Part shown: one piece after another, positions 45 through 18,534 of the stretch
Layout of the letters: each line of letters opens with the position of its first letter
Numbering within the stretch: position 1 is the first letter of the stretch
The notes under the pieces: generated by a model
The model's input: only the letters and a program-made list of their open reading frames with translations
Database searches by the model: none
Told to the model about the DNA's origin: nothing
Made by a program: the position numbers and the translations under genes
From: a virus
Reading direction: 5' to 3' (one strand)
IMG/VR virus record: IMGVR_UViG_3300046002_000261
Location: 1 to 24,782 of that record
DNA length: 24,782 bases

Positions 45-81
45 GGTGTTCCGCTCTTGGGTCGCTCACGGTGTTCCGCTC
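45..81. repeat. 12-bp direct repeat pair, 25-bp period
   Basis: GGTGTTCCGCTC occurs at 45-56 and again at 70-81. The copies are identical and set 25 bp apart, before a C-rich run (81-86). It may be a binding site for a phage DNA-binding protein such as the terminase small subunit encoded just downstream. No function can be shown from sequence alone. Confidence 0.55.
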
Positions 82-117
82 CCCCCTGGTACTGTTACAT
101 TGGTTCGTTACCTAGCA

Positions 118-147
118 GAGAGTGGTTGCACAACCACGGAGAGTGGT
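118..147. repeat. GAGAGTGGT direct repeat pair with enclosed hairpin
   Basis: GAGAGTGGT occurs at 118-126 and 139-147, 21 bp apart, which is close to two helical turns. Between and partly overlapping them, GTGGTT (122-127) and AACCAC (132-137) form a 6-bp hairpin with a four-base loop. The pair ends one base before the GTAAC leader element of the next gene, so it is placed to act as an operator or packaging-protein site. Confidence 0.5.
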
Positions 148-169
148 GTAACAAATAAGTCTTTATGTG
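148..169 (+). promoter_or_regulatory. GTAAC leader element, copy 1 (terminase small subunit)
   Basis: GTAAC at 148-152 lies 22 bases before the ATG at 170, with AAGTCTTTAT between. The same GTAAC-to-ATG spacing recurs before four other genes in this window. There is no Shine-Dalgarno match between the element and the ATG. The shared spacing is an argument for starting the terminase small subunit at ATG 170 rather than GTG 167. Whether it acts as promoter or translational signal is unknown. Confidence 0.45.
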
Positions 170-607
170 ATGAAACAAAACGAAGAGATGACCTTAACTG
201 CTCCACAAGAGAAGTATCTGGATTGGCTGTGCACCGCTCCTGCGGAGCGTGTGCCAGCGTCTAAGAACAAGTACTCGATGGAGAACGCAGTGGACATCTC
301 TACGATGCGTAGGTGGGAAAAGAAAGACATCTTCCGTAGCCGCTGGAAGACACAGGTGGACGACATTCAGGGTTCGCCAGAGCGAACCCAGAAGCTTCTA
401 GACAACCTATACAACAAGGCCCTGGAGGGTGATACCAAATCCGCTGAACTGTATTTGAAAGCGACTAATCGGATGGCTCCGCCATCAGTAACGATTAGCT
501 CTAATAAGAAGACAGTGGATTTGACGGATGCTGAGTTGGATTCGTTGATTGCCACTATCGCAGAACGTGAGAAGGCTAATCGGAACCATTTGAAGGCTGT
601 AGTTTGA
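170..607 (+). CDS. terS: Terminase small subunit (HTH, DNA recognition)
   Basis: This 145-residue protein fits the phage terminase small subunit. That protein recognises the phage DNA, assembles as a ring and loads the large subunit for headful or cos packaging. Residues about 38-60 look like a helix-turn-helix ending in the typical STMRRWEKKDIFRSRW pattern. Residues about 68-103 match the usual oligomerisation helices (LLDNLYNKALEGD, then YLKATNRMAPP). The acidic tail around residues 118-135 (DLTDAELDSLIATI) is also typical of small subunits. The ORF can start at GTG 167 or ATG 170; I chose ATG 170 because of the shared leader spacing. It is separated from the large subunit by about 4.6 kb of fibre genes. 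The stop overlaps the TTG start of the next gene by four bases. The assignment rests on pattern recall, not a search. Confidence 0.7.
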   Translation: MKQNEEMTLTAPQEKYLDWLCTAPAERVPASKNKYSMENAVDISTMRRWEKKDIFRSRWKTQVDDIQGSPERTQKLLDNLYNKALEGDTKSAELYLKATNRMAPPSVTISSNKKTVDLTDAELDSLIATIAEREKANRNHLKAVV

Positions 608-738
608 TACTCGAAACATGTCCTACCTGTGCTGAGGTTTATCCTCCTTTGCTTACTTCATGGCTTTGCCCTACTTGTGGGGTTGATGACTATGAGAAGA
701 AGATGGCAATATTTGATTTGAAAGATGATAGGGAATAA
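604..738 (+). CDS. Tiny zinc-ribbon protein (two CPTC knuckles), TTG start
   Basis: A 44-residue reading frame starts at TTG 604 (TTGA overlap with the terminase small subunit stop) and ends at TAA 736-738, whose last base is the first base of the next ATG. It carries two knuckles, CPTC (residues 6-9) and CPTCG (residues 22-26), 12 residues apart. That is the classic spacing class of a small structural zinc ribbon. The C-terminal third is charged and probably helical. GAAGG lies about 10 bases before the start. Exact tiling between two genes and the paired cysteines are strong evidence that it is real despite its size. Its role is unknown; such proteins can bind nucleic acid or act as assembly cofactors. 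The start codon is the least certain part, as no ATG or GTG is available upstream of the first cysteine pair in this frame. Confidence 0.65.
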   Translation: MILETCPTCAEVYPPLLTSWLCPTCGVDDYEKKMAIFDLKDDRE

Positions 739-1076
739 TGGCTGTACCTAGCAAACAGAACTTGACGATGACTCGTGGCGACACGGAAAGTCTTGTTGTT
801 ACTATGACTTCTGATGGCACAACGCCAGTTGACATTTCCGGACGCACTTATCGTGCGCAGATAAGAACCACAAAAGATGCTGCTACGATTGATGCATCTT
901 TTACTTGCACTGTTACCAGTGCCTTGATTGGGGAAGTTACTTGTTCCATGACTGCTGGAGATACTGCTACTTTGGCTGTTGGCACACATTATTGGGATTT
1001 TGAAGAAAACAAAAGTGGCGTAATCTCGACTATTCTTGCTGGAACTGTGAATGTTTTGGCTGACGTAACTAGGTAG
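738..1076 (+). CDS. BppU-like baseplate / fibre-anchor protein
   Basis: The protein has 112 residues. The pattern is an early RGDTESLVVTMTSDG strand, then PVDISGRTYRAQIRT, a middle GEVTCSMTA strand, then GTHYWDFEE and a C-terminal LAGTVNVLADVTR. This resembles the small beta-sandwich N-terminal domain of lactococcal-phage BppU and related fibre-anchoring proteins. That domain attaches receptor-binding proteins to the virion. Here it stands alone directly before a collagen-like fibre, so I infer it is an adaptor for the fibre set or an accessory baseplate protein. It begins at the TAATG junction with the zinc-ribbon gene and ends two bases before the next ATG. There is no signal peptide or membrane segment. 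The family match is from memory of conserved patterns. Confidence 0.55.
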   Translation: MAVPSKQNLTMTRGDTESLVVTMTSDGTTPVDISGRTYRAQIRTTKDAATIDASFTCTVTSALIGEVTCSMTAGDTATLAVGTHYWDFEENKSGVISTILAGTVNVLADVTR

Positions 1077-1078
1077 TC

Positions 1079-2332
1079 ATGGCTATTACTGGTGTAACGG
1101 TTACTCGTGCCGATGAAACTAATGGTGTTGTTCGTACTGCAGTTGTAAGTCTTGTTGGTACTGCTGCCCTTGGTCCGGTTGGTCCCGAAGGTGCAGTCGG
1201 ACCTACTGGTGCCACGGGTGACACGGGTCCTGCCGGTCCAATAGGTGATTCAGCAACTATTACCGTTGGGACTGTTTCTGTTGGTCCTGCTGCTGTTGTC
1301 AACTCTGGAACTAGTGGCGAAGCAATATTGGATTTCACTTTGGAAACGGGTGCCACTGGTCCAACCGGACCTGTTGGACCCGCTAGTTTATCATTAGATG
1401 ATGTTGGTGATGTTACAATCACTTCTGCTACGGCAAACGATATTCTCAAATGGAATGGTTCTGCTTGGGTAAATGATACATCGTTGTTGGCTCTAAAAGC
1501 CCCTATTGCTTCTCCAACATTTACTGGCACGGTAACACTTGCTGCAGACCCAGCATCAGCACTACAAGCAGCAACAAAACAGTATGTTGATAATGTCTCT
1601 GCTGGAATTGTGGCGAAACCTTCTGTTCTTGGAGCAACAGTTTCCAATGTAACTGGAACCTATTACAACGGACCAAGTGACGATGGCGTAGGGGCTACTC
1701 TTACACACGATTCAAATGGTGTATTTCCAAGCGGTGCAGGTGGTGCTTCTGGTTGGGGCGTTGGAAAAGGGATTCTCCTAAAGAATCAAACCAACAAAGA
1801 AGAAAACGGTAGATACTTTGTATCAAACATGGGTTCGGTGTCAACCCCTTATGTCTTAACACGGTGTGGTTACTGCGATGAAGCAAGTGAAATACCAGGC
1901 GCTTACATTTTTGTTCAAGACGGAACATATGCTGGAACTGGGTGGATTCAGATTGTTGCAGACCCAGCAACATTTGTTGTAGGAACAGATGACATTGATG
2001 TTTTCCAATTTTCTGGTGCTGGCACATATATTGCTGGTGCAGGAATCGTCCTCACTGATAATTCTTTTTCAGTAGATACCACAACAATTCAAGCACGAGT
2101 AACAGATGTTTCCGATACGGAAATTGGTTACCTAAATGGCGTGACATCTGCAATTCAAACACAGTTGGATGCAAAAGTGGCAAAAGCTACTTTGACTACA
2201 ACTGGAGATACCTTTTATGCTAGTGCAGCCAATACGCCAGCGAGACTGGCTATTGGCGCTCCGGCAACCGTTTTAACCGTAACTGGTGGTCTTCCTGTTT
2301 GGGCTGCTCCTGCAGCAGCTACATGGGGATGA
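1079..2332 (+). CDS. Collagen-like tail fibre protein
   Basis: This 417-residue fibre has recognisable modules. Residues 1-30 form a beta-rich head. Gly-x-Pro/Gly-x-x collagen-like repeats follow at about 32-57 and 91-101, interrupted by a short beta unit. Residues 106-132 hold the widespread fibre motif LDDVGDV ... LKWNGSAWVN. Residues 139-154 (LKAPIASPTFTGTVTL) recur in the next gene. Residues 161-172 carry the ALQAATKQYVDN motif, and 346-366 the SDTEIGYLNGVTSAIQTQLDA repeat seen in many phage tail fibres. A larger domain between about 175 and 315 contains a CGYC pair (263-266). The collagen triplets predict a trimer. The likely role is receptor binding or fibre shaft. The C terminus is short and Ala/Pro-rich rather than a known chaperone. 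Confidence 0.85.
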   Translation: MAITGVTVTRADETNGVVRTAVVSLVGTAALGPVGPEGAVGPTGATGDTGPAGPIGDSATITVGTVSVGPAAVVNSGTSGEAILDFTLETGATGPTGPVGPASLSLDDVGDVTITSATANDILKWNGSAWVNDTSLLALKAPIASPTFTGTVTLAADPASALQAATKQYVDNVSAGIVAKPSVLGATVSNVTGTYYNGPSDDGVGATLTHDSNGVFPSGAGGASGWGVGKGILLKNQTNKEENGRYFVSNMGSVSTPYVLTRCGYCDEASEIPGAYIFVQDGTYAGTGWIQIVADPATFVVGTDDIDVFQFSGAGTYIAGAGIVLTDNSFSVDTTTIQARVTDVSDTEIGYLNGVTSAIQTQLDAKVAKATLTTTGDTFYASAANTPARLAIGAPATVLTVTGGLPVWAAPAAATWG

Positions 2333-2333
2333 T

Positions 2334-2355
2334 GTAACAGAAAGAACATGATTAT
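2334..2355 (+). promoter_or_regulatory. GTAAC leader element, copy 2 (second tail fibre)
   Basis: GTAAC at 2334-2338 lies exactly 22 bases before ATG 2356. The GTAAC overlaps the end of the upstream fibre gene's stop region. The interior, which ends in ATTAT before the ATG, is the least similar of the five copies, so this copy is supported mainly by spacing. Confidence 0.3.
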
Positions 2356-2856
2356 ATGGCGTTAACTATTCCAAACACTTTTGTCACTGGCACGACCGCA
2401 CTGGCTTCTGAGGTCAATGGCAACTTTACGGCCGTTAAAACTGAAGTAGATTTGAAATCACCGCTTGCTTCACCAACATTCACGGGTACTGTCACTATGA
2501 CGAAACCCGTAATTAACGGCACAAACCCAACAGGTGCGACATATACTCCGTCTTCTGGCTCACAAACTGTTGCATTGGATTGTGCATCAAACAACATGCA
2601 CATTGTTTCTGGCAACGTTTCTGGAACGGCAATAACCTTTACGGTCGCTAACGCAACAAACAATCAGCCGTTTATTGTCTCGGTTTTGCAAGGTGGCACA
2701 ACTGTTTCTACCATTGTTTCCTGGTTCGCTACGGTTCGTTGGGCTGGTGGCTCAGTTCCAGTTTTGACAGCAACATTGAATAAGCGTGACACTTTTGGGT
2801 TTATAAGAACTGGTGCGAATACTTATGATGGTTTTATTATTGGGCAGAACTGCTAG
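2356..2856 (+). CDS. Short tail fibre protein with shared fibre module
   Basis: The protein has 166 residues. Residues 5-30 give a short N-terminal section that reads like a virion-attachment segment (FVTGTTALASEVNGNF). Residues 33-48 (LKSPLASPTFTGTVTM) are nearly the same as a block in the preceding fibre. From about residue 66 the pattern SGSQTVALDC ... AITFTV ... VLQGGTT, then VRWAGGS ... LNKRDTFGFIRT and a final DGFIIGQ, matches a common C-terminal beta module of environmental phage fibres. That module probably forms the trimeric tip. It sits between two larger fibre genes, so it may be an alternative or accessory fibre sharing an attachment region. Start ATG 2356 is supported by the leader spacing, with no clear Shine-Dalgarno site. 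The function is inferred. Confidence 0.7.
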   Translation: MALTIPNTFVTGTTALASEVNGNFTAVKTEVDLKSPLASPTFTGTVTMTKPVINGTNPTGATYTPSSGSQTVALDCASNNMHIVSGNVSGTAITFTVANATNNQPFIVSVLQGGTTVSTIVSWFATVRWAGGSVPVLTATLNKRDTFGFIRTGANTYDGFIIGQNC

Positions 2857-2868
2857 TAGGGTTTTAGC

Positions 2869-4914
2869 ATGGCAATTATAACTGCTGCTGCTGGTGGCGG
2901 TAACTGGACAACTGGGGCTACTTGGACTGGTGGCGTTGCACCAACTGCAGCGGATGACGCTGTACTTACCGCTACTTCAGGAAACGTAACAATCAACTCT
3001 GGTGCCGTGTGTCGTTCACTGGATTGCACGGGTTATACGGGCACCCTAACTCATACTGCTGCAATAACGTTAAACATTGGTGACGCTACATCCGGGACTG
3101 GCAACGTTGCTCTTCGATTTGTGTCTGGAATGACTTATACAAAGGGTAGTACTACAACTTCGGCTATCAACTTGAAGTCTACCTCTGCAACGCAACAAAC
3201 TATTACTACTGGCACAAAAGTGCTTGGTAATTTGACCGTAAATGGTGTTGGTAGTTCATATCTTCTTTCTGATACTTTAACCGCTACTGCTGGTACGGTA
3301 ACTTTGACATCGGGAACTTTGAACACTAATGGTTTTGCTGTTACTTGTTCTACATTTTGGTTGTCTGGTACAACCGTTAGAACATGCACTTTGGGGGCAA
3401 GTACTATAACCTGTTCTTCAAATTGGTTTGCTGCTACTGCAACGAATTTAACTTTTAATGCGAACACATCAACAATTATCCATCAAGGTAATCAATTTGA
3501 AGGTGGAGGTAAAACATACAATATAGTGAATCTAACCAGCTCTACTAGTGTTTCTGGTGTAAATACTTTTGCAAATTTGACATTTACTGGAACTGCAAGT
3601 AAAACTAATGAATTGCAATTTCAGGACAACACAACGGTTACTGGTACTTTAACAATTAACGGTAACTCTACACTGAATAGAGTATTGGTTAGTTCTGGTA
3701 CTTTAGGAACTTCTCGAACTATTACGGCAGCAACATGGTCTGTATCGAATACCGACTTTCAAGATATTACTGGTGCTGGTGCTGGTTCACGTGATTTATC
3801 TGCTATTACGGGTCTTTCTGGTGATTGTGGTGGCAACAGTGGTTTTACATTTACTACTGCAGCAACACAAACTGCCAACGGTACAACATCTTTTAACTGG
3901 TCTACTGCTGCACGTTGGACTAGTCGTGTTCCTTTGCCACAAGATGATGTAGTCATCAATAACGCTTTTGGAACATCCCAAACAGTCACTTCCGATATGC
4001 CACGTTTGGGTAAAAGTATAGATTTTACTGGTGCAACATGGACAACTGCGTTAACTTTTGCTCTCCAGGTGTCTGGCACTCTTTATGGTTCGTTTACCAT
4101 GGTTGCCGGCATGACAACCAGCGGCGCTTCAACAACATTGTCCTTTCAGGGCAGGGGTGCATCTACGTTTAACAGTGCATCGAATACACTTACTTTTGGT
4201 TTTAAGGTGGATGCTGTTTCTGGTTCTGTAACTTTGGCTAGTAATGTGACTACAAATATTCGTACAATAACTGTTGGTAGTGGTACTTTTTCAGCGGTTA
4301 ATGGAGTAGACAACTATGTAATTACTACGGGATTCTTTAACATGATTGGTGGAACCGTAACCCTTGGTTCTGCAACACATATTTTTAATGCTGCGAGTAG
4401 CAATCCGTGGCAAAAAAGTGGTGGAACATTAACCGCATACACTGGTATCATTAAATTTACGGATACTGGTGCAACTGGTGTGAACTTTGTTGGTGGTGGA
4501 GCAACCTATGCAAATGTTTGGTTTGCTCGTGGAGCATCTACGGCAAGCATTACAATTACTGGGTCTAACACTTTTGGTGATTTGAGGGACAGTGGTACAG
4601 CGGCTCATTCTTTGCGATTTGCGGCTGGTACAACACAGACTGTTACGACATTTACTGTTTCTGGTAGTTCTGGTAATTTGATTACGTTGGACTCTGCTAC
4701 TACTGCTAGTTTCGCTCTTGTTAAATCGGGTGGTGGACAAGTTTCATCTGATTATTTGAACATTCAACATTCTGTTGCCACGCCATCATCAACTTGGTTT
4801 GCTGGTGTAAACTCTGTAGATAATCAGGCAGTTGTTACGGCTGGGTCGGGTTGGATATTTACTGCTCCAACTACTTCTACACCTAGTTCGTCATTCTTAT
4901 TTTTAACTATGTAA
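2869..4914 (+). CDS. Large beta-solenoid-like tail fibre / adhesin with internal repeat
   Basis: The 681 residues are dominated by Thr, Ser, Gly, Asn and short hydrophobic strands (TLTVNG, GTVTLTSGT, NLTFTGTA and similar), as in right-handed beta-helix or pectin-lyase-like fibres. The N terminus (residues 10-32, GGNWTTGATWTG ... APTAADD) is echoed at about residues 335-365 by FNWSTAARWTSRVPLPQDDVV. Each is followed by Val/Ile-rich strands and a LDCTG- or IDFTGATW-type segment, so the protein looks like a tandem duplication of a roughly 330-residue unit. No catalytic motif for a depolymerase can be asserted. The last residues (STPSSSFLFLTM) form a short hydrophobic tail. The product is probably surface-exposed and binds or degrades host polysaccharide; both roles are inference. 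It is the third gene of the fibre cassette. Confidence 0.7.
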   Translation: MAIITAAAGGGNWTTGATWTGGVAPTAADDAVLTATSGNVTINSGAVCRSLDCTGYTGTLTHTAAITLNIGDATSGTGNVALRFVSGMTYTKGSTTTSAINLKSTSATQQTITTGTKVLGNLTVNGVGSSYLLSDTLTATAGTVTLTSGTLNTNGFAVTCSTFWLSGTTVRTCTLGASTITCSSNWFAATATNLTFNANTSTIIHQGNQFEGGGKTYNIVNLTSSTSVSGVNTFANLTFTGTASKTNELQFQDNTTVTGTLTINGNSTLNRVLVSSGTLGTSRTITAATWSVSNTDFQDITGAGAGSRDLSAITGLSGDCGGNSGFTFTTAATQTANGTTSFNWSTAARWTSRVPLPQDDVVINNAFGTSQTVTSDMPRLGKSIDFTGATWTTALTFALQVSGTLYGSFTMVAGMTTSGASTTLSFQGRGASTFNSASNTLTFGFKVDAVSGSVTLASNVTTNIRTITVGSGTFSAVNGVDNYVITTGFFNMIGGTVTLGSATHIFNAASSNPWQKSGGTLTAYTGIIKFTDTGATGVNFVGGGATYANVWFARGASTASITITGSNTFGDLRDSGTAAHSLRFAAGTTQTVTTFTVSGSSGNLITLDSATTASFALVKSGGGQVSSDYLNIQHSVATPSSTWFAGVNSVDNQAVVTAGSGWIFTAPTTSTPSSSFLFLTM

Positions 4915-4920
4915 CTACTG

Positions 4921-4940
4921 TGTTACCGAACTAGGTAACA
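4921..4940. repeat. Inverted repeat spanning the leader of the holin-like gene
   Basis: TGTTACC (4921-4927) and GGTAACA (4934-4940) form a perfect 7-bp stem with loop GAACTA. The right arm contains the GTAAC element of leader copy 3. It lies between a fibre gene and the holin-like gene. It lacks a T-tract, so it is more like an operator or RNA structure than a terminator. Confidence 0.5.
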
Positions 4941-4955
4941 GGTTGTCCTATTGGT
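4935..4955 (+). promoter_or_regulatory. GTAAC leader element, copy 3 (holin-like gene)
   Basis: GTAAC at 4935-4939 lies 21 bases before ATG 4956, followed by GGTTG and CCTATTGGT. Copy 5 at 12260 shares TAGGTAACA, GTTG and CTATTGGT, a striking match for two intergenic stretches over 7 kb apart. No Shine-Dalgarno site is present before the ATG. Confidence 0.55.
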
Positions 4956-5171
4956 ATGGGAAAAATTAAAGCATTTGCGTACAATAATCCTGTTCGTGTA
5001 GCCGCATGGGTTACGTCGACGGTTGCACTTGTTTTGTCGGTAATATCTAGCGATATTCCGACAGAATCGGTAACTATGTTTATTTTGTCTACTCTTGGTT
5101 TGGGTGAATTTGCTCAACGGGCAGAAAACAAGAAAACAGATGAAGCACTGTTTACGGAGATTCCTGAGTAA
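4956..5171 (+). CDS. Small two-helix membrane protein, holin-like
   Basis: This 71-residue protein has a basic N terminus (MGKIKAFAYNNPVR), a first hydrophobic helix (about 13-31, VRVAAWVTSTVALVLSVI), a short polar turn, a second apolar helix (about 37-50, ESVTMFILSTLGLG) and a charged C-terminal tail (about 52-71). Size, two helices and charged tail fit a small phage holin, which would time lysis by permeabilising the inner membrane. No endolysin is visible in the window, so the lysis role is only plausible. It has its own leader element and inverted repeat, and sits two bases before the terminase large subunit start. An alternative is a membrane-anchored accessory protein of unknown role. 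Confidence 0.45.
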   Translation: MGKIKAFAYNNPVRVAAWVTSTVALVLSVISSDIPTESVTMFILSTLGLGEFAQRAENKKTDEALFTEIPE

Positions 5172-5173
5172 AC

Positions 5174-6766
5174 ATGGAACTCACAGACCTTCTCAATGAG
5201 AAGGAATGGCGCAAGTGTAAAGGTCCAGACAGTGCAACTACCGAGGAATTGGTGGTTGCATTCTCACACTTTTGTGCAAACTACTGGCACATTAGACATC
5301 CTGAGCGTGGTCGTATTAAGTTTGATATGCGTGAAGCCCAGCTTGAGACTGTGCGATGCTGGATTGAAGACCGATACACGATTGTGCTAAAGGCACGTCA
5401 GATTGGTTTTTCTACTCTGGCAGCGACATTTACTTTCTGGGAAACATTTTTTTGGCCCGACCGATTTACCGTAATGCTTTCACGCACAGAGCGTGAAGCT
5501 GCCAAGTTGCTTCAGAAAACTAAGTATGGTTATAAGATGATGCCTAGTTGGGTTCGCCAGCGTGGACCTGACCTGTTGTCTGATAACCAATTGAAGATGG
5601 TGTTTGCCAATGACTCTGCTATTGAGTCATTACCTTCTGGTAATGACCCTGCTCGTGGAGAATCTGTGTATCGAGTGTTTATTGACGAGATGGCGTTTAT
5701 CCCTAACGCTGCTGAAGCTTGGGCATCTATTGAGCCTATTGCGGACGTTGGTGGACGTGTGAACTGTCTTAGCACAGCTAATGGTGAAGGTAATATATTC
5801 CATGAATTGTGGGTTGGTTCTCAAACGGGCACTAATCGTTTTACTGGAATCTTTTTTCCTTGGTCTGCTGGAGACCGTGACCAAGCATGGTATGACGCCA
5901 AGAAGGCAGACTTGCCTGATTGGCAGATGGCACAGGAATACCCTGATGACCCTGATGAAGCCTTTATTCGTTCTGGACGTCCAGTGTTTGACCTTGAGGC
6001 AATACGATTAATTGAACCGATTGAACCCGACCGTGGATACTTGAAATCTTCTCCTGGTAGGAATAGTTACGATTTTATTGAAGATGGTGGTGCTTTTGCT
6101 ATTTGGGATTATCCGGCACGAGGTGAGACTTACGTTATTGGGGCCGACGTTGCAGAAGGTCTGGGGCATGGGGACTTCAGTTCTGCACACATCATCTCTG
6201 CCGATACCGGTATGGTTGTGGCGCATTGGCACGGGCACGTGGACCCTGACATTTTTGGTGAAGAGGTCTTGAAGGAGATTGGGTATTACTACAATCGAGC
6301 CTTGGTTGGTGTTGAATCAAACAACCATGGTTTGACTACTTTGAAGGGTCTGCAAAGGTCTGGTTATAGGAATATTTTTCGTCAGCGAAAGATGAACCAT
6401 CGTAATCCACAGATTAGTGAAACAATGGGTTGGAGAACGACTGCTGTGTCAAAGCCTTTGGCTATTGACGAACTGAACGCTGCTATTCGTGATGAGAGTC
6501 TTTCCCTGTATGACGGTAAGACTATGGCTGAATTACGTACATTTGTGCGTGAAGCCAATGGCAAGATGCATGGCTCTCCGCATGATGACCGTGTTATGTC
6601 TTTGGCGATTACCAACCAGATGTTGAAGTATGTTTGGTTGCCTGAGTACCGTTCTGAGGATGCTCCAATGAAGAACACTATGGGTTGGTGGGAGAAGTAC
6701 ATAATTCGAGACATTCAGCCACAGAATGCACGAATTGGTTCTTACAACACTTCTTCCAGTACTTAG
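5174..6766 (+). CDS. terL: Terminase large subunit (packaging ATPase and nuclease)
   Basis: This 530-residue protein drives ATP-dependent DNA packaging at the portal and cuts the concatemer. The ATPase domain shows a deviant Walker A of the KxRQxGxST type (KARQIGFST, 73-81), a Walker B strand ending in acidic residues (YRVFIDEMAF, with D171 and E172) and a coupling motif STANG (200-204). The RNase H-like nuclease domain supplies acidic residues in IGADVAEG (D325), VGVESNNHG (E381) and HDDRVMS (D471, D472). Length and order are typical of the family. It follows the holin-like gene with two bases between them; GGAG lies about 16 bases upstream of the ATG. The separation from the small subunit by fibre genes is unusual. 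The assignment is firm. Confidence 0.95.
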   Translation: MELTDLLNEKEWRKCKGPDSATTEELVVAFSHFCANYWHIRHPERGRIKFDMREAQLETVRCWIEDRYTIVLKARQIGFSTLAATFTFWETFFWPDRFTVMLSRTEREAAKLLQKTKYGYKMMPSWVRQRGPDLLSDNQLKMVFANDSAIESLPSGNDPARGESVYRVFIDEMAFIPNAAEAWASIEPIADVGGRVNCLSTANGEGNIFHELWVGSQTGTNRFTGIFFPWSAGDRDQAWYDAKKADLPDWQMAQEYPDDPDEAFIRSGRPVFDLEAIRLIEPIEPDRGYLKSSPGRNSYDFIEDGGAFAIWDYPARGETYVIGADVAEGLGHGDFSSAHIISADTGMVVAHWHGHVDPDIFGEEVLKEIGYYYNRALVGVESNNHGLTTLKGLQRSGYRNIFRQRKMNHRNPQISETMGWRTTAVSKPLAIDELNAAIRDESLSLYDGKTMAELRTFVREANGKMHGSPHDDRVMSLAITNQMLKYVWLPEYRSEDAPMKNTMGWWEKYIIRDIQPQNARIGSYNTSSST

Positions 6767-6787
6767 TAACGAATTGTCTTAATAGTT
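6766..6787 (+). promoter_or_regulatory. GTAAC leader element, copy 4 (CxxC protein)
   Basis: GTAAC at 6766-6770 begins on the last base of the terminase TAG stop and lies 22 bases before ATG 6788. GAATTGTCTTAATAGTT fills the gap, close to the GGTTGTCCTATTGGT of copy 3. No Shine-Dalgarno-like purine run is seen. Confidence 0.5.
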
Positions 6788-7015
6788 ATGGAAGAATTTC
6801 GTTGTTTGGATTGTCTATCGACTTTTATGGAGGCGGAACTCCCCAGAAGGGGTTCCATTTGTTTTAAGTGCCACATCAAAGGTATTAAATGGGGATTCAC
6901 TTACGGCAAAGAGGATTTTCATGGACCTACAGTTGTTGAGCGTCAGCGAGAGCAGATGCGACAGGCTGAGTCTGCCGGCATAAAGGCTGAACCAGTCGGG
7001 CAACGGTGGGTGTGA
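6788..7015 (+). CDS. Small CxxC zinc-binding protein next to terminase
   Basis: The 75-residue protein has CLDC (6-9) and CFKC followed by His (25-29), giving a four-cysteine zinc-ribbon layout. A conserved-looking C-terminal half follows: FTYGKEDFHGPTVVERQRE (about 37-55), then AGIKAEPVGQRWV. I recall similar small proteins near terminase or portal genes of actinobacterial phages, but could not check this. The function is unknown; a structural zinc site with possible nucleic-acid or assembly role is the most one can say. It lies between the terminase large subunit and a small membrane protein, ends one base before the next ATG, and carries the shared GTAAC leader. Confidence 0.7.
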   Translation: MEEFRCLDCLSTFMEAELPRRGSICFKCHIKGIKWGFTYGKEDFHGPTVVERQREQMRQAESAGIKAEPVGQRWV

Positions 7016-7016
7016 C

Positions 7017-7232
7017 ATGGAATCAGTCTGGGTTCCCATTGTCGTCGCAATCATCATGGGACCAATTGTCGTCATATTACAACTACTCAGAAGAGAGAAT
7101 ACCGACCAGCATGCAGAGGGACGCACATTATTACGGCTCATTGGGGATAAAGTCGATGAAGTTGGCAGCAAGATTGATGCTCATATTGGTTGGCATGAAG
7201 GTATTGAAGACAGCGTTGAGAAAGAGGACTAA
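7017..7232 (+). CDS. Small single-helix membrane protein with charged tail
   Basis: The protein has 71 residues. The N terminus is an uninterrupted apolar helix (about residues 4-24, VWVPIVVAIIMGPIVVILQLL) directly followed by RRE and a long charged, probably helical tail (GDKVDEVGSKIDAHI). There is no signal peptidase site, so it should stay anchored with the tail on one side. Similar short membrane proteins beside phage structural genes are often annotated as holin-like or as DUF2746-type. I cannot distinguish a lysis accessory from an unrelated membrane protein. GGTGGG lies about 10 bases before the ATG. Its TAA shares its last base with the ATG of the portal gene, indicating coupled translation. 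Confidence 0.55.
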   Translation: MESVWVPIVVAIIMGPIVVILQLLRRENTDQHAEGRTLLRLIGDKVDEVGSKIDAHIGWHEGIEDSVEKED

Positions 7233-9115
7233 TGGCTAGGACATCTAATCAGGAACTTATTACTCGTTATCGCAAGAAGATTAACCAGTCTCGTCGTTGG
7301 CGGGAAGAAGAGAAATACGACGACCTTTGGCGTCGTATGATTGATATGTATCGTGGAAAGCATTATGTAAAGTCCTCAGAGGCTGACCAGTTGTTGGTTA
7401 ACATTGCTTTTGCAACTATCAACGTTATTGCTCCGGGCGTCAGTGTTAACTACCCAAAGATTACTGTTAATGCTCGTAAGTCTGAACAGGCTCCTAATGC
7501 TGTTGTGACTGAAGCGATTGTCAACTATTGGTGGAGACACTATGAGTGTCAAAAAGAATTTCGTCGTGCCGTTAAAGACACTTTGATTTGTGGTCATGGT
7601 TGGGTTAAGACTGGTTATCGTTTTGTTGAGAAGGATGTGGAACATGAGGTTTCTGATGAACTTGCTGATGCAAGTCCCCAGTCGATAACTGAGTCTGCTC
7701 AGGTTATTACAGAAGACCGTCCCTTCGTTGAGCGTATTTCCCCTTTTGATGTTTTTGTTGATTCTGATTGCACATCAATGTCTGACATGCGTTGGATTGC
7801 TCAACGTATTCGTCGACCTTTGTCCGATGTCAAAAAGGACAAGCGATACAATTCTGTTGCCCGCAATGATGCACAGCCTAGCCACTACTCTCGTTATGGA
7901 CTAGAGGGTGTTAGTGGTCGTGATAGACCACGACCATCATCTGAGCCTGAAGATACTTATGTTGAGATTTGGGAGTATTACGATATTGATGCAGGCAAGA
8001 TGTCTGTGTTTTGTGATGGTGGTGACAAGTTCCTTGTGAACCCAACTGACATTCCATTCTCTTTTGGTCATCCATTCGTGATGATTCCGAACTATGAAGT
8101 ACCTGATTATTTTTATCCAATGGGTGAACTTGAGGCTATTGAGCCTTTGCAGATGGAACTCAATCAAACTCGTACTCAGATGATGAATCATCGTAAACGT
8201 TTTTCTCGTAAGTGGTTGTACAAGGAGTCAGCATTTGATGCTGACGGTAGGTCAGCACTCGAATCGGATGAAGACAATGTCATGGTTCCTGTTATTTCCG
8301 AAGAGAGCATCAATAGTGTTGTTGGTCCAATGCCGGCTATTATTAGTCCTCCAGAGTTTTATAATCAGTCTGAATTGATTTCTAGCGATATTGACCGTGT
8401 TTCTGGTGTATCGGAATATCAGCGTGGTTCGCTACCCGAGATTCGTCGTACGGCGACAGAAGCCGGCATTATTCAAGATGCCGCTAATGCTCGTTCGTCA
8501 GACAAGCTTGCTTTGATTGAGCGTTCTATTGCAGAGGTTGCACGTCGATTGGTTGCTTTGGCTCAGGAGTTTATGACTGGTGAAGCAGCAGTTCGTGTTG
8601 CTGGAACTGGAGCCAAACAGGTCTGGTTGAACTTTGACCGTGACTATCTACAGGGTGAGTTTGATTTTGAAGTTGAGGGTGGTTCAACACAACCAGTCAA
8701 CGAGACTGTGCGACGTCAACAAGCTGTTCAGGTTGTTGACGCGATGGCACCTTTTGTCAACACTGGTATTATTGACATGGCGAAACTTGCTGGTTATCTT
8801 TTGACTTACGGTTTTGGCATCAAGGATGGTGCATCGTTCATTGTGCCACCTCCTCCACCTGCGCCTCCCGCCCCTCCTGCACCTGAACCACAGATGCCAC
8901 CACAGGCAATGCCGCCACAAGGTATGCCTCCTCAGATGCCTCCGCAAATGGCTCCGATGGCACCGCAGGGTATTCCACAAGGTATGTTGCCACAAGACAT
9001 GGGTGCAGGATTGCCACCAGAACTTGCATCATTACCTCCTGAGGTATTGATGCAATTGATGCAACAAATTCAGGGTGGTCAGCAATCACCACCTGGCATG
9101 CCACCACAAATGTAA
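7232..9115 (+). CDS. Portal protein (podovirus type)
   Basis: This 627-residue protein should form the ring at the capsid vertex through which DNA passes. Portal signatures are the helical N terminus (RRWREEEKYDDLWRRMIDMY), the IAFATINVIAPGV segment (about 58-70), a conserved GHGWVKTGY (121-129), a PFDVFVDSDC region near 170-180, and a long stem/wing with PIEPLQ-type helical pieces in the middle. The last 90 residues (from about 536) are Pro/Met/Gln-rich with many PPQM and PPQG pieces, an unusual extended tail for a portal. It lies downstream of the terminase and upstream of the scaffold, the canonical order. The start ATG is coupled to the preceding stop, with GAGG just upstream. The role is firm; the tail function is unknown. 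Confidence 0.88.
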   Translation: MARTSNQELITRYRKKINQSRRWREEEKYDDLWRRMIDMYRGKHYVKSSEADQLLVNIAFATINVIAPGVSVNYPKITVNARKSEQAPNAVVTEAIVNYWWRHYECQKEFRRAVKDTLICGHGWVKTGYRFVEKDVEHEVSDELADASPQSITESAQVITEDRPFVERISPFDVFVDSDCTSMSDMRWIAQRIRRPLSDVKKDKRYNSVARNDAQPSHYSRYGLEGVSGRDRPRPSSEPEDTYVEIWEYYDIDAGKMSVFCDGGDKFLVNPTDIPFSFGHPFVMIPNYEVPDYFYPMGELEAIEPLQMELNQTRTQMMNHRKRFSRKWLYKESAFDADGRSALESDEDNVMVPVISEESINSVVGPMPAIISPPEFYNQSELISSDIDRVSGVSEYQRGSLPEIRRTATEAGIIQDAANARSSDKLALIERSIAEVARRLVALAQEFMTGEAAVRVAGTGAKQVWLNFDRDYLQGEFDFEVEGGSTQPVNETVRRQQAVQVVDAMAPFVNTGIIDMAKLAGYLLTYGFGIKDGASFIVPPPPPAPPAPPAPEPQMPPQAMPPQGMPPQMPPQMAPMAPQGIPQGMLPQDMGAGLPPELASLPPEVLMQLMQQIQGGQQSPPGMPPQM

Positions 9116-9118
9116 CGA

Positions 9119-9136
9119 TAAATATATAACTATAGA
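9119..9136 (+). promoter_or_regulatory. Possible promoter before scaffold and capsid genes
   Basis: The 42-base gap between portal and scaffold contains an AT-rich run ending in ACTATAGAG (9128-9136). TATAAC (9125-9130) could serve as a -10 box. I see no good -35 hexamer at the right distance. ACTATAGA also resembles the core of T7/SP6-type promoters, but there is only one copy and no polymerase gene in the window. A promoter here would fit the need for high scaffold and capsid expression. Confidence 0.22.
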
Positions 9137-9157
9137 GCAACCCCTTGAAAGGACTCC

Positions 9158-9943
9158 ATGAGTGAAGTAGTAAGCAATGAACCAGTAGTAGAAGTTGCCC
9201 CCGAGTTAGAAAGCGAAGGACAAGCAGCAGCTGCAGGAGAAATTGAAAGCCTAAGTGAGCAGGAAATTGAACTGCTTCCAGTTGATGAGTATGGCGACAA
9301 ATATGTTGCCGTTCAAGTCAATGGAGAAGAAGTAAGAGTTCCACTTAAAGAGGCGCTTTCTGGATACCAGCGTCAAGCGGATTATACTCGCAAGACACAG
9401 GAACTCAGTGAGCAACGGCGACAAGTACAGTTTGGTGGCGCATTGCAAGAAGCCTTGCAAAACGACCCAAGGGGTACTTTGGAATTGTTGAAGCAACATT
9501 ACGGATTAGACGAGACACCCTTATCCCCAGAGGAAGAGGAACTCCAAGACCCGGTTGAGAAACAATACCGACAGTTAGAACAACGAGTCCAGGCTTTTGA
9601 ACATCAAAAGGCTGCTGACGAGTTGGAGCGTACTGTTGCTTCGCTGCAAGCGAAATATGAGGACTTCGATGCAAATGAAGTTGTTTCTAAAGCTTTGGCT
9701 TTGGGTTCAACAAATTTGGAGGCTGTCTACAAGCAGATTTCGTTTGACAGGGTGTACGAAGATGCGCAAGCTATTCGTCAAATCCGCTCTAAAGCGGCTT
9801 CTGACGAACAGACCCGCACTAGTGCTAAGCGTCAAGCGGGAGTTGTAAGTGGTGGCACAACATCGTCAAGTGCTGATGTTTCTGCTAAACCAATTACATC
9901 ATTGCGAGAAGCATTTGAAGCTGCAAAGCGTCAACATTCTTAA
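9158..9943 (+). CDS. Capsid scaffolding protein
   Basis: This 261-residue, acidic, helix-rich protein lies just before the major capsid gene. The N-terminal 45 residues are very acidic. Residues about 48-85 carry the motif VQVNGEEVRVPLKEALSGYQ followed by RQADYTRKTQEL, which I associate with scaffold proteins of many environmental podo- and siphoviruses. Coiled-coil-like helices occupy about 120-165 and the C terminus (about 240-261) ends in a short basic helix, ITSLREAFEAAKRQH, as expected for the capsid-binding end. The protein would guide procapsid assembly and then leave or be degraded; no protease domain is visible. GAAAGGA lies about 10 bases before the ATG, a good ribosome-binding site. 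Confidence 0.8.
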   Translation: MSEVVSNEPVVEVAPELESEGQAAAAGEIESLSEQEIELLPVDEYGDKYVAVQVNGEEVRVPLKEALSGYQRQADYTRKTQELSEQRRQVQFGGALQEALQNDPRGTLELLKQHYGLDETPLSPEEEELQDPVEKQYRQLEQRVQAFEHQKAADELERTVASLQAKYEDFDANEVVSKALALGSTNLEAVYKQISFDRVYEDAQAIRQIRSKAASDEQTRTSAKRQAGVVSGGTTSSSADVSAKPITSLREAFEAAKRQHS

Positions 9944-9967
9944 CGCTTAACCCAAGGAGATAACAAT

Positions 9968-10906
9968 ATGGTCGCTGCAAACAGCAACTTTGATAATCTA
10001 TTAACAACAACCCTTGCGAACTATCGCAAGACTCTCACGGACAACGTGTTCACTGCACGTCCGTTGACTTACGCCCTCATGGAAAAGGGTCGCATTCGTA
10101 TGCTTAACGGCGGTACGAAAATTGTTGAGCCACTGATTTATGGTCAGAACTCGACTGTTGGTTCGTACTCAGGTTACGACTCAATTGCGCTTACCCCACA
10201 AGAAGGCATTTCCGCTGCAGAGTTTGAATGGAAGCAGTACGCTGCTTCGATTTCAATCAGTGGTATTGAAGAAGCCAAGAACAACGGTGAGCAAGAAATC
10301 ATCAACTTGTTGGAAGCAAAAATCATGCAGGCTGAAGAGTCGATGCGTGAGTCTTTCAACACGATGTTCTTTGCTGATGGAACTGGCAACAGCGGAAAAG
10401 ACTGGAACGGCCTTGGCAACTTGGTTGAATCCGGCAACACCGTTGGTGGCATTGACTCCAACACTTACACATGGTGGAAGTCGTACGAGGACAACGATGC
10501 TGTTGCCTTGTCGCTTGCTGACATGGCAACTGCCTACAACAGCGTTTCGGTTGGTAATGACCACCCAGACGTGTTGTTGACAACTCAGACTTTGTTTGAG
10601 AAGTACGAAGCATTGCTTCAACCACAACTCCGTTACACGGACACTAAGACTGCAGATGCTGGATTCCAGAACCTGTTGTTCAAGGCTGCTCCAGTAATGT
10701 ACGATGTGCATTGCACCGCAGGAACGTTCTACTTCCTGAACAGCAAGTACATCACTTTGGTTGGTCACTCAGACAAGTGGTTCTCACAGACCGCTTTCAT
10801 TTCGCCTGAAGACACAGATGCACGTTATGCGCTCATCATGTGCTACGGTAACTTGACTGTACGTAACCGTGCAAAGCAAGGCAAACTGACCGCTAAGACA
10901 GCCTAA
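9968..10906 (+). CDS. Major capsid protein (HK97 fold, likely)
   Basis: The protein has 312 residues. It follows the scaffold by 24 bases and has the strongest ribosome-binding site in the window (AAGGAG, nine bases before the ATG). Codon use seems more selective here, with many GCC, AAC and AAG codons, as expected for a highly translated gene. The N-terminal part (about 1-75) would be the N-arm. Residues about 80-115 form the E-loop/spine region with EFEWKQYAASISISGIEEAK, and a long helix follows (IINLLEAKIMQAEESMRESFN). A glycine-rich stretch (DGTGNSGKDWNGLGNLV, about 137-153) is typical of the HK97-type coat fold. There is no N-terminal protease domain or delta domain. Several hundred copies should build the shell. 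Confidence 0.85.
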   Translation: MVAANSNFDNLLTTTLANYRKTLTDNVFTARPLTYALMEKGRIRMLNGGTKIVEPLIYGQNSTVGSYSGYDSIALTPQEGISAAEFEWKQYAASISISGIEEAKNNGEQEIINLLEAKIMQAEESMRESFNTMFFADGTGNSGKDWNGLGNLVESGNTVGGIDSNTYTWWKSYEDNDAVALSLADMATAYNSVSVGNDHPDVLLTTQTLFEKYEALLQPQLRYTDTKTADAGFQNLLFKAAPVMYDVHCTAGTFYFLNSKYITLVGHSDKWFSQTAFISPEDTDARYALIMCYGNLTVRNRAKQGKLTAKTA

Positions 10907-10936
10907 GTTAACTACTAGAAAACAAGGAGAAATATT

Positions 10937-11362
10937 ATGCCACTATTAGCAAATGATACACAGGGTGCGGTAACACGTCACCGTCTTGAGGAATATGTTG
11001 CACAGCGTGAAAAGGTTACAGCAGTAGCCATCACTGACGCAGCAGAACCAACAGCAGCACAACTGCTTAACAGCAAGTTGTTTGTTGGTACACCAACACA
11101 AGATACAACCTTCACCCTTCCAACTGCAGCACTTGTGCTTGCAGCGTTGACGGATGAGGCAGTTGGAACTTCGTTTGAGTTCACAATCGTGAACCTTGCG
11201 TCAGGGTTCCAATACACGGTAACTACGGCTACTGGTTGGACGATTACCAACGGTGGAAACATGGTTGTGTTTGATGGAACTTCGGCAACATTCCTTGCTG
11301 TTGTAACATCATCGTCAGCAGTGCAGTTGTACCGCAAAAACTCTGGTGGTGCAGTTAAGTAA
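10937..11362 (+). CDS. Probable capsid decoration / head fibre protein
   Basis: The protein has 141 residues. The N terminus (about 10-30, GAVTRHRLEEYVAQREKV) is charged and helical. The rest is beta-rich, with TFTLPTAAL, SFEFTIVN, YTVTTATGWTI and VQLYRK strands resembling the compact beta modules of phage decoration or fibre-tip proteins. It lies immediately after the major capsid gene, with a strong AAGGAG site 11 bases before the ATG, so it is probably made in high amounts and sits on the capsid. The role is inferred from position, composition and strand pattern. A short head fibre is an alternative. There is no signal peptide or cysteine. Confidence 0.5.
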   Translation: MPLLANDTQGAVTRHRLEEYVAQREKVTAVAITDAAEPTAAQLLNSKLFVGTPTQDTTFTLPTAALVLAALTDEAVGTSFEFTIVNLASGFQYTVTTATGWTITNGGNMVVFDGTSATFLAVVTSSSAVQLYRKNSGGAVK

Positions 11363-11378
11363 GTAATCTGATTCGGAG

Positions 11379-11400
11379 GGGTGGAGGCCACACTCCACCC
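11379..11400 (+). terminator. GC-rich hairpin after the capsid/decoration genes
   Basis: GGGTGGAG (11379-11386) and CTCCACCC (11393-11400) form a perfect 8-bp GC-rich stem with loop GCCACA. It is followed by TTCC and an AT-rich stretch rather than an uninterrupted T run. It may be a weak intrinsic terminator or an attenuator that lowers expression of later genes, or an RNA-stabilising 3' structure for capsid mRNA. The next gene has its own ribosome-binding site 20 bases after the hairpin. Confidence 0.55.
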
Positions 11401-11431
11401 TTCCAAATCTATTTAGTTTTAGGAGATTAAA

Positions 11432-11587
11432 ATGCCATACAATTATGCTCAATTAGATAGTCATGCAAGTGCAACTCCGAAGTCTGGTACTCCTACGGCA
11501 CCAGGTTTGTACGGCAAGAGTTCGACACCAGTCAAAAAAGATAAGAATTATAAAGTTCGTCCAAATTCAGATAAGACAGGAAAATAA
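11432..11587 (+). CDS. Short hypothetical protein (51 residues), possible virion component
   Basis: ATG 11432 lies seven bases after AGGAGA and the frame ends at TAA 11585-11587, two bases before the next ATG. The 51 residues begin MPYNYAQLDSHASATP and end in a lysine-rich tail (KKDKNYKVRPNSDKTGK). There are no hydrophobic helices or cysteines. The good ribosome-binding site and the exact fit between genes support it as real. Its basic, proline-containing, probably disordered character resembles the next gene's product, so the two may work together, for example as minor capsid or DNA-associated proteins. No family is recognised. Confidence 0.6.
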   Translation: MPYNYAQLDSHASATPKSGTPTAPGLYGKSSTPVKKDKNYKVRPNSDKTGK

Positions 11588-11589
11588 TT

Positions 11590-12252
11590 ATGGCTATGGC
11601 AAAGAAGATGAAGCCTGGTGTTGCAAAACGAGTTTCTGACCGTAAAGCATTTGTGTCTGAGAATATGGCATCAAAGGGCACTACTGCTAAGCAGGCTCGT
11701 CAACGTTTTTACGTTCAGACTCGTATGTCTGAACTAGAGAAGAAGACTGGCAAGCCTGTATCTGCTGAGAAGCGTAAGGAGCTTCAACAGAAGTTTCAGT
11801 CTGGTGATGTAGCCCGCAAGGGTTTTGCTGCTCCTAAGAAGAAGATGAGTGGTTCTAGTTCATCTAGTTCTGTTGCTCCTAAGGTAACTCCTAAAGTTCA
11901 ACCTCGGACCGATACTGAAGGTCGTATGGGTCCTAAGTCGTCTCCGAAGGGTCGTCCTGCTACTTCCAACATGCAGGGTATCCGCGGTTATGGTCGTGTA
12001 GACTCTAAGGGACGTACTGGAATGGGTGCCACTGCACCAAAGAGGAGTGGTATGGCACAAGCTAATCCACGTACTGCTAAATTGGTTGGTGGAGTTCTTG
12101 GTGGACTAAAATCTATTGGTAGTTCTATTACTCCTAATCGTGCTAATCCTAGTCGTGTTTCTCAGTCTGCTGCAAAGAACAGAGCTGATAAGGCTGCGAT
12201 GAGTGCTCCCAAGAAGACCAAAAAGTCGACACCTGCTTATAAGACAAAATAA
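11590..12252 (+). CDS. Very basic low-complexity protein, possible DNA-binding virion protein
   Basis: The protein has 220 residues and is rich in Lys, Arg, Ser, Ala and Pro, with few acidic residues and no cysteine. Residues about 1-80 appear helical (MAMAKKMKPGVAKRVSDRKA, then QARQRFYVQTRMSELEKK). From about 83 it is low-complexity, with a run of serines (SSSSSS, about 88-93), PKVTPKVQP, many Pro-Lys and Gly-Arg pieces and a Lys-rich end (APKKTKKSTPAYKTK). Composition resembles histone-like or DNA-condensing phage proteins, but that is inference. It lies between the decoration-gene region and the Cys/His small gene. AGGA lies about 10 bases before the ATG. No family is recognised. Confidence 0.65.
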   Translation: MAMAKKMKPGVAKRVSDRKAFVSENMASKGTTAKQARQRFYVQTRMSELEKKTGKPVSAEKRKELQQKFQSGDVARKGFAAPKKKMSGSSSSSSVAPKVTPKVQPRTDTEGRMGPKSSPKGRPATSNMQGIRGYGRVDSKGRTGMGATAPKRSGMAQANPRTAKLVGGVLGGLKSIGSSITPNRANPSRVSQSAAKNRADKAAMSAPKKTKKSTPAYKTK

Positions 12253-12259
12253 CGTATAG

Positions 12260-12281
12260 GTAACAAGTTGGGCTATTGGTG
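12260..12281 (+). promoter_or_regulatory. GTAAC leader element, copy 5 (Cys/His small protein)
   Basis: GTAAC at 12260-12264 lies 22 bases before ATG 12282. TAGGTAACA, GTTG and CTATTGGT are shared in the same order with copy 3 at 4935. The spacing supports ATG 12282 over TTG 12276 or GTG 12279. No Shine-Dalgarno match lies between the element and the start. Confidence 0.55.
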
Positions 12282-12497
12282 ATGAACCAATCAGCCAAAC
12301 TTGCTCATACTTTATACGGGGAGCCAACTACTAAGCACTCCCGTCTTGCCCATGCAGAAGGCGCTCGTCTTGCTGCTCCATCAGGTCCGTATATCGGGCG
12401 TAATCGTTGCATAGCCAAGGATGACACATGTGAGGGCCCAAAAGCCCGTGGGACAGATTTTTGTATCGGACATCTAAGGAATAAGGGTGAGGCTTAA
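12282..12497 (+). CDS. Small Cys3-His zinc-finger-like protein
   Basis: The 71-residue protein has a likely metal site at its C-terminal end: C43, C50, C61 and H64 in the arrangement C-x6-C-x10-C-x2-H (RCIAKDDTCEGPKARG, then DFCIGH). I recall this kind of R-C-x-A-K ... C ... G-x-x-F/Y-C-x-x-H motif in small proteins of many phages of Gram-positive hosts, where the function is unknown. The N-terminal half is basic with several His. Upstream TTG 12276 and GTG 12279 are also in frame; I prefer ATG 12282 by the shared leader spacing. Its TAA shares its last base with the ATG of the adaptor gene. Possible roles are nucleic-acid binding or assembly, not demonstrable here. Confidence 0.65.
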   Translation: MNQSAKLAHTLYGEPTTKHSRLAHAEGARLAAPSGPYIGRNRCIAKDDTCEGPKARGTDFCIGHLRNKGEA

Positions 12498-17244: not shown

Positions 17245-17265
17245 GGAACAAAAGGACTAATTAGT

Positions 17266-18534
17266 ATGGCTGACCCGTATAGCGACATGATTGCTGCATT
17301 GATTTCCAGCAAGGGTGGTTCTGATTTTTCGTCGAATACGATGGACCCTGTTATGCAGTATTTGAGTGGGTCGTTTCAGCAGGCTCCACAGTTTGATATT
17401 AATCAGTTGTACGAGCGTACTGCTCCTACTTTTATGTCTGCTGCTGCTCTTGGTGAGACATCTCCTCATGCCATTGCTGCTGCTCGTATCAAGTCTGGTC
17501 AGGCTCCTTGGGAGTTGTGGCGTGATAAGAACCTACAACAACAGTCTGGTATGAGTCCCGAAGAGTGGAAATCGTTTATTAACGATTTGGCAACTGAGCA
17601 ACAGACTGTCAAGAAGGCAATGCTTGACCAGAGTTTGCAACAAGATGTATTTCAGAAGGCTGGAATGCGTGGTGCTAATGCTTCTTACACTGATGTCAAT
17701 CCAGATGGTACTCAGACGTATGCTCCAGACGCTTATCAGTTTGCCCCGAAGCAATTCGATGAACTCCTTGCGAATCTTCCAGCTGAACTGACTTCTGATG
17801 CTGCTAGGCGAAAGTCTGTGGAAGCCAAGTATGGTGCTCCTGTTATGATTAGTGACCCAAAGAGAATTCGGGCAATGCTTGAACAGCAGGCTAAGTCTGA
17901 GGCTGGTCTGAAGGCTTCTCGTGATGTTTATGGTACTCCGATGTACGATGTTAATGGTGCTCCTGTTTTGAATGACAGTGGGCAACAGATGCGTAGCGGT
18001 GTTGCTGGTAGAGGTAATTTTATTGAGCGGACTGTTGGTGGTAATTTGGGTCGCACAAATACAGGTAAGGCTTTGGATTATGCCAATGATTCTGGTTTAT
18101 CTTGGAGTACCTTTAATCCTTTTGCCAAGGGTGCTGATAATCCAGATGTTACTTTGGCGATGCTTGAATCGGCTGTGCGACGTCCTTTGACTTCTGCTCT
18201 TGGTTTGAGACCGTTGATAGACAGACTTGGCATTACTCTTGGATTGAACAATGAGGACAAGAATCCTTCTTCCAAGAAGCAGTTGAACAAATTGGTCAAA
18301 CAACAGGGCAACAGGCCGATTGAGGACAAACGTGCCAGCGCAATTGGGCGTTCGGATGCGAACGCTATCAATGCTTATATGGACCGCAAGAAAGGTAGTG
18401 GTGCTAATACTCAGCGTCAAGCTGTAGCGCTTGCCGCACAAGTTCTTGCTTCTTTGGCAGAGCAGGGTGCTACTCCTTTGAAAACTGACATTATGAAAAA
18501 CGCTATGTTGAAGCGCACAACACGGAATGGCTAA
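17266..18534 (+). CDS. Probable internal virion protein, hypothetical
   Basis: The 422-residue protein is soluble, with no membrane segment or cysteine apparent. The N terminus is MADPYSDMIAALISSKGGSD. A helical section at about 90-140 contains MSPEEWKSFINDLATEQQ. A central section (about 130-260) contains charged short elements including a Gly/Asn stretch (NGAPVLNDSGQQMRSGVAGR). The C-terminal third is helical and basic, ending ATPLKTDIMKNAMLKR. It lies between the repeat-rich protein and the giant protein, and overlaps the giant gene's ATG by eight bases, so it belongs to the same expression unit. AAAGGA precedes the ATG by about 11 bases; GGAAC 21 bases before the ATG resembles the GTAAC leader but also includes this site. 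Function by position only. Confidence 0.55.
   Translation: MADPYSDMIAALISSKGGSDFSSNTMDPVMQYLSGSFQQAPQFDINQLYERTAPTFMSAAALGETSPHAIAAARIKSGQAPWELWRDKNLQQQSGMSPEEWKSFINDLATEQQTVKKAMLDQSLQQDVFQKAGMRGANASYTDVNPDGTQTYAPDAYQFAPKQFDELLANLPAELTSDAARRKSVEAKYGAPVMISDPKRIRAMLEQQAKSEAGLKASRDVYGTPMYDVNGAPVLNDSGQQMRSGVAGRGNFIERTVGGNLGRTNTGKALDYANDSGLSWSTFNPFAKGADNPDVTLAMLESAVRRPLTSALGLRPLIDRLGITLGLNNEDKNPSSKKQLNKLVKQQGNRPIEDKRASAIGRSDANAINAYMDRKKGSGANTQRQAVALAAQVLASLAEQGATPLKTDIMKNAMLKRTTRNG

Follow-up and report, generated by a model that had tools for sequence, protein, structure and literature searches.

Start-associated sequences, termed SAS and ESAS, are described from the Cluster K mycobacteriophages and the Microbacterium cluster EF phages, where SAS contains a Shine–Dalgarno (SD) site, lies 3–7 nt from the ATG and precedes non-structural genes (PMC3203893, PMC7302621). 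The Microbacterium cluster EC phages carry an 18-bp asymmetric motif (5'-TAGaCTATaGGTgTaAgC) in 12 similarly oriented copies, 21–30 bp before start codons in small intergenic gaps; a similar motif is found in cluster EI, and an EI phage also carries a sigma factor gene (PMC7302621). Among the phages of Gram-positive bacteria, the late regulators RinA, Ltr and ArpU are proteins of about 130 aa that are made late in the early block and switch on the late genes, and the Ltr of phi13 uses upstream repeats to act at a single late promoter, which has a TATA box (PMC13123087).

We analyzed a 24,782-bp viral fragment (hereafter the window) that covers only a late region, with a terS-like gene, fibres, terL, portal, scaffold, capsid and a giant virion protein. 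The initial annotation had reported the pentamer GTAAC before the ATGs at 170, 2356, 4956, 6788 and 12282; all five copies were confirmed, at 148, 2334, 4935, 6766 and 12260, with spacings to the ATG of 22, 22, 21, 22 and 22 nt, respectively. The weaker relative that it suspected before 17266 (GGAAC, 21 nt from the ATG) is also real, as the orthologues have GTAACAAAAGGACTAATTAGTATG there. The copies and the first gene that they precede are as follows.

148..169, + strand: element 1, GTAACAAATAAGTCTTTATGTG, before the terS ATG at 170; heads the late operon
170..607, + strand: terS-like gene, preceded by element 1; identity from synteny and the MW202803 annotation
2334..2355, + strand: element 2, GTAACAGAAAGAACATGATTAT, before the fibre gene ATG at 2356
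4921..4940, no strand: inverted repeat TGTTACC-gaacta-GGTAACA, overlapping element 3; direct reading
4935..4955, + strand: element 3, GTAACAGGTTGTCCTATTGGT, before the ATG at 4956
6766..6787, + strand: element 4, GTAACGAATTGTCTTAATAGTT, before the ATG at 6788 of a Cys-rich gene (Zn gene)
12260..12281, + strand: element 5, GTAACAAGTTGGGCTATTGGTG, before the Cys gene ATG at 12282
17245..17265, + strand: element 6, degenerate, GGAACAAAAGGACTAATTAGT, before the ATG at 17266; SD inside; orthologues with GTAAC

The Cys-rich gene at window 6788, after terL, is called the Zn gene below, and the one at 12282 the Cys gene. A PHROG search gave no match for the terS-like gene (170..607). The last part of the window (18528–24782) is the beginning of the giant virion protein, whose versions in relatives are 2,377–3,060 aa long, with conserved ends and a variable middle.

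Like SAS and ESAS, the element is a repeated asymmetric motif at a near-constant distance before the starts of unrelated genes, in one orientation and in only part of the genome. Unlike SAS, with its internal SD 3–7 nt from the start, it lies 21–23 nt away, precedes late genes, mostly lacks an SD and has a candidate reader. The EC/EI motif differs in having another consensus and in standing upstream of the ribosome-binding site; no reader was proposed for it and no co-variation shown. Whereas phi13 Ltr has a single site of action, here the late region contains several dispersed short elements, each at a fixed distance from its ATG. T7 class III and T4 late promoters are likewise short and repeated through the late region, but no T7-type polymerase was found in 17 genomes of these phages and the element differs in sequence from the T4 late TATAAATA box. 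A phage regulator binds the stoperators of L5, which are also short, asymmetric and oriented and lie between genes, but, unlike the element, at no set distance from the ATG.

Within the window, GTAAC was found 20–24 nt before candidate ORF starts five times against 0.3 expected, and a spacing-tolerant pattern search of both strands gave 11 matches against 4.95 expected. As the excess in the window alone is moderate, the claim was tested on relatives. A terminase search yielded 80 related viral contigs, and full relatives were then fetched as a held-out set; these are uncultured viruses, and some contigs may be fragments. A terminase search of bacterial genomes, aimed at the host, returned only distant relatives (24–34% identity). 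The phages that carry the element form a large family of environmental podovirus-like phages that has been little studied.

In most relatives GTAAC is enriched 21–22 nt before late-strand ATGs and nearly absent on the early strand: nearly every relative with a late region has the element on the late strand, and very few have it on the early strand. Directly downstream of terL, most of the 80 contigs keep GTAACGA, followed by variable bases and an ATG at 21–22 nt. We then counted all 1,024 pentamers 20–24 nt before candidate ORF starts in groups of phages defined by the recognition helix of the putative regulator described below, seven of which have a tryptophan in that helix. GTAAC was the top pentamer in five of these seven (HAWRLRN, p = 3e-21; HAWRLSKK, 1e-13; HAWRLKN, 4e-8; HVWRLRN, 2e-7; SKPHVWRIRN, 3.5e-5) and among the best four in the two smallest, with terL identity to the relative G004 down to 64% among the phages ranked. 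The scan for enrichment proposed in the initial annotation was thus borne out in the relatives, and the pentamer did not occur elsewhere at equal rates.

Counted by gene family with a generous search in which some start assignments are approximate, the element is present in 46/52 distinct orthologous upstreams of terS, 47/51 of the Cys gene, 18/20 of the gene at 17266 and 22/31 of a fibre-cluster gene; the element or a clade variant of it is present in all 88 of the Zn gene. The same loose search gave 3/107 distinct upstreams for portal, 4/81 for capsid and 3/46 for scaffold, control genes that carry SD sites. Comparison among relatives shows a real, spacing-constrained sequence element with a strong late-strand bias, tied to operon-head genes. 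That chance together with shared ancestry of the upstream regions produced it can practically be dismissed: the moderate excess within the window is compatible with this, but unrelated gene families share the element, GTAAC ranks first in divergent phages, the bases between pentamer and ATG vary although neither the pentamer nor its distance does, whole sets of copies switch to GTAGC and GTGAC (see below), and the held-out enrichment and pentamer ranking refute it.

We rejected MW202803.1 (L088) as a further carrier, since neither a GTAAC element nor a sigma4 protein (see below) was found in it. This genome has about 39 palindromes of the form GTTTC-N2..8-GAAAC, where mononucleotide shuffles lead one to expect 0.17; two of them stand directly before terS and the Zn-position gene, and they resemble the dispersed palindromes of Cluster O mycobacteriophages. 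Its Zn-position gene (38887–39204) is labelled 'DNA-directed RNA polymerase' in the deposited annotation only.

The consensus before the ATG is tARGTAACRAAnnGnSYTAWTRGT in the sequence logo, with little conserved upstream of the pentamer. The downstream bases align better from the pentamer than from the ATG (6.15 vs 4.74 bits of information). Among 221 element-bearing upstreams, 163 have no SD; the starts are almost all ATG or GTG, though start selection favoured ATG. Copies lacking an SD stand 21–23 nt from the ATG in 157 of 163 cases, as do 52 of the 58 copies with an SD; the other six of the latter are at 25 or 34 nt, so that a fully fixed spacing was rejected. The proposed lack of an SD applies to most copies (terS, the Cys-rich gene after terL and the gene at 12282), but not to those of the gene at 17266 and the fibre cluster, which have AAAGGA or AGGAG.

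Two relatives (G004 and G008) have an extra small ORF in front of terS, and in these the element lies 21 nt before the ATG of that ORF; the element thus follows the head of the operon. In G004 the ORF (L095, about 4614–4771) begins MKPRRAEP... and shows an ATGA overlap; the ORF is also upstream of terS in G008. Upstream of the Cys gene, several phages (e.g., L060, L045 and G008) have stable-looking hairpins such as CCCCCACCGAAAGGTGGGGG that stop a few nt short of the GTAAC and may be terminators of the preceding unit.

A divergent early/late control region adjoins terS, with the following features in the window.

94..98, − strand: reverse-strand copy (GTTACAT on +), pointing towards the early genes
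107..111, − strand: second reverse-strand GTTAC, also present in G004 and in the closest relatives of the window
122..137, no strand: inverted repeat GTGGTTG-CA-CAACCAC, just upstream of element 1; direct reading

The reverse copy GTTACAT stands behind a C-rich block, and its distance from the forward copy ranges from 2 to about 60 nt. The forward and reverse copies nearly touch in G013 (GTTACATGTAAC), which suggests that the pentamer requires no conserved sequence on its upstream side. Where the C-run block is present, the reverse copy reads GTTAC in 27 sequences, GCTAC in five and ACTAC in one. It has no start codon adjacent to it and switches together with the other copies in the GTAGC clade; in the GTGAC clade it is not GTCAC, i.e., it did not follow the switch. 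A conserved block, CCCCCCCTATAGTCCCCCCC, adjoins the reverse element (L100, about 3155–3195, in G013) and is shortened at window 81–98; it is possibly a replication origin or a G-quadruplex.

The pentamer differs between clades. In one clade the Zn, Cys, terS and other genes have GTAGC, GTAGT or GTAAT, with some Cys copies remaining GTAAC; in a second, GTGAC is found at the Zn gene in 19/19 loci, at terS in 8/8 and at the Cys gene in 2/3. On the terL tree GTAGY has one origin and GTGAC two changes, one of them in a group of phages whose regulator has the helix motif HVWRL. Sequence comparison shows that in two clades the copies of the pentamer have changed jointly, with few independent switches.

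The candidate reader emerges from the long relatives, where the early strand encodes, beside RusA, a protein of about 106–133 aa with a sigma-70 region-4 domain (hereafter the sigma4 protein). Of the fetched genome records, 36 contain it, as do 77 of 80 primase-bearing loci. The Pfam Sigma70_r4 profile matched it with E = 5e-6 and 26.5 bits against a cut-off of 24.1. An AlphaFold model has a mean pLDDT of 71, with a helical core near 90, and its best PDB matches in Foldseek are sigma factors, many at region 4, albeit with weak E-values of 0.015 or higher. Profile score and predicted fold together place the protein among sigma-70 region-4 domains. Sigma region 2 (PF04542) was detected in none of 17 genomes, with the control positive in 10 hosts; the protein is essentially a region-4 domain, not a complete sigma factor. 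As the contig of the window has no early region, we infer its sigma4 gene from relatives 96–97% identical in terL.

Known regulators offer partial parallels. The −35 element of ECF sigma factors is GGAAC, which GTAAC/GGAAC resembles, and region 4 is also the domain found in the phage protein; unlike the ECF case, there is no detectable sigma region 2 in the 17 genomes, and the element is too close to the start codon for a normal −35. RinA is weakly similar to the sigma4 protein, below the cut-off: three of four sigma4 proteins scored 17.6, 17.9 and 18 bits with TIGR01636 (NCBIfam) against a threshold of 31.9 bits, and this family was absent from the 25 matches listed for the fourth. The sigma4 gene follows RusA in the distal part of the early block; in G004 it is about 12 kb from terS, on the opposite strand. 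The protein may be a RinA/Ltr-like regulator, though score and position fall outside what defines that family, and the element resembles the start-associated repeats of actinophages.

The recognition helix of the sigma4 protein reads GV[ST]K[TP]HAWRL in the GTAAC phages, with H-V-W (HVWRL) in a related group. The GTAGC clade has GYSDVH[IT]MR (HIMRI/HTMRL) at this place and the GTGAC clade GVSRMHASRL, the last being read on contigs linked to the late region only by 96% primase identity. Further, the identity of the sigma4 protein to that of G004 is 32–35% in the GTAGC clade vs 58–59% in GTAAC phages matched with it for terL, capsid and DnaB divergence from G004; at equal genome distance, this protein has thus changed out of step with the genome. 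A strict code of one helix residue to one pentamer was rejected, because three HVWRL phages (G045, G071 and G057) have both GTGAC and GTAAC sites in one genome, which indicates that specificity is graded rather than one-to-one. Hence, the early suggestion of a protein-binding site is well supported by the change of the pentamer with the recognition helix from clade to clade, provided that an exact match between the two is not expected.

Because the pentamer changes together with the sigma4-like protein, it is probably part of a phage-specific late promoter. Judging from these comparisons, we consider it reasonably probable that the element is the recognition site of such a promoter, read by the sigma4-like protein and probably yielding near-leaderless mRNAs. 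Other roles have to be weighed against this. First, the sites could be stoperator-like operators or road-blocks at which the sigma4 protein silences or paces late transcription. We regard this as unlikely: short, asymmetric, intergenic sites in one orientation and the paired inverted copies at terS and at window 4921–4940 would suit it, but a road-block has no need of a fixed distance from the ATG, yet most copies are 21–23 nt away. Moreover, no other conserved late promoter was noticed by eye in the terS control region.

Second, the pentamer could be a translation-initiation element that aids ribosome binding from about 20 nt upstream on mRNAs without an SD. The nearly fixed distance to the ATG, the frequent lack of an SD and the resemblance to the actinophage start-associated sequences, for which a role in translation has been suggested (PMC3203893), are in its favour. 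Pairing of the element with 16S rRNA was considered and not supported. This role, also raised in the initial annotation, is disfavoured and seems to us quite unlikely on several counts: the conserved reverse copy, which has no start codon beside it, takes part in the switch of the GTAGC clade, spacings of 25 or 34 nt occur among copies with an SD, the pentamer varies by clade with a DNA-binding domain, and the early genes are nearly devoid of it.

Third, a promoter for a T7-type single-subunit RNA polymerase would account for the TAAC...CTATWGG arrangement, with its T7-like spacing and start sequence; by-eye alignment matches the TAA-to-CTATAGG spacing to that of T7, and some copies read CCTATAGGGT. 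This is highly improbable and was rejected, as the polymerase (PF00940) was found in none of 17 near-complete genomes in a search in which T7 itself scored 1e-110, and the covarying gene encodes a sigma4 domain. The giant virion protein was likewise discarded as an N4-type polymerase; the G004 copy has no Pfam hit, and a crude motif scan was unconvincing.

Returning to the late promoter, the sigma4-like protein would bind the pentamer and direct RNA polymerase to the heads of late units; this would most likely be the host enzyme, given that neither a T7-type polymerase nor sigma region 2 was detected in the 17 genomes. An ordinary −35 box was rejected, as its spacing would place the transcription start inside the gene; the geometry of a box read by sigma region 4 must then be non-canonical. 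Transcription would start about 17–22 nt downstream of the pentamer, at or just before the ATG, and the late mRNAs would be near-leaderless, with the SD-bearing copies serving leadered or read-through mRNAs. Among the roles first proposed, a promoter for near-leaderless transcripts thus remains the best reading, the start point being one that we infer.

More tentatively, and again from sequence, we envisage that a region-4-only factor reads a five-base code about 20 bp before the start codon and that the host polymerase begins at the ATG. The 22-bp cassette would then combine the promoter and the translation start of each late operon, and the code could be swapped genome-wide through the recognition helix, giving rise to private promoter alphabets.

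Start-associated repeats have been reported in phages since 2011 without a known reader or function. Comparative genomics here supplies a candidate reader, the region that would set its specificity, namely the recognition helix, and natural variants of that specificity, which together turn a descriptive puzzle into a direct test of binding and promoter activity. If true, a late factor consisting of region 4 only and a promoter abutting the start codon would constitute an unusual transcription architecture in common environmental phages.
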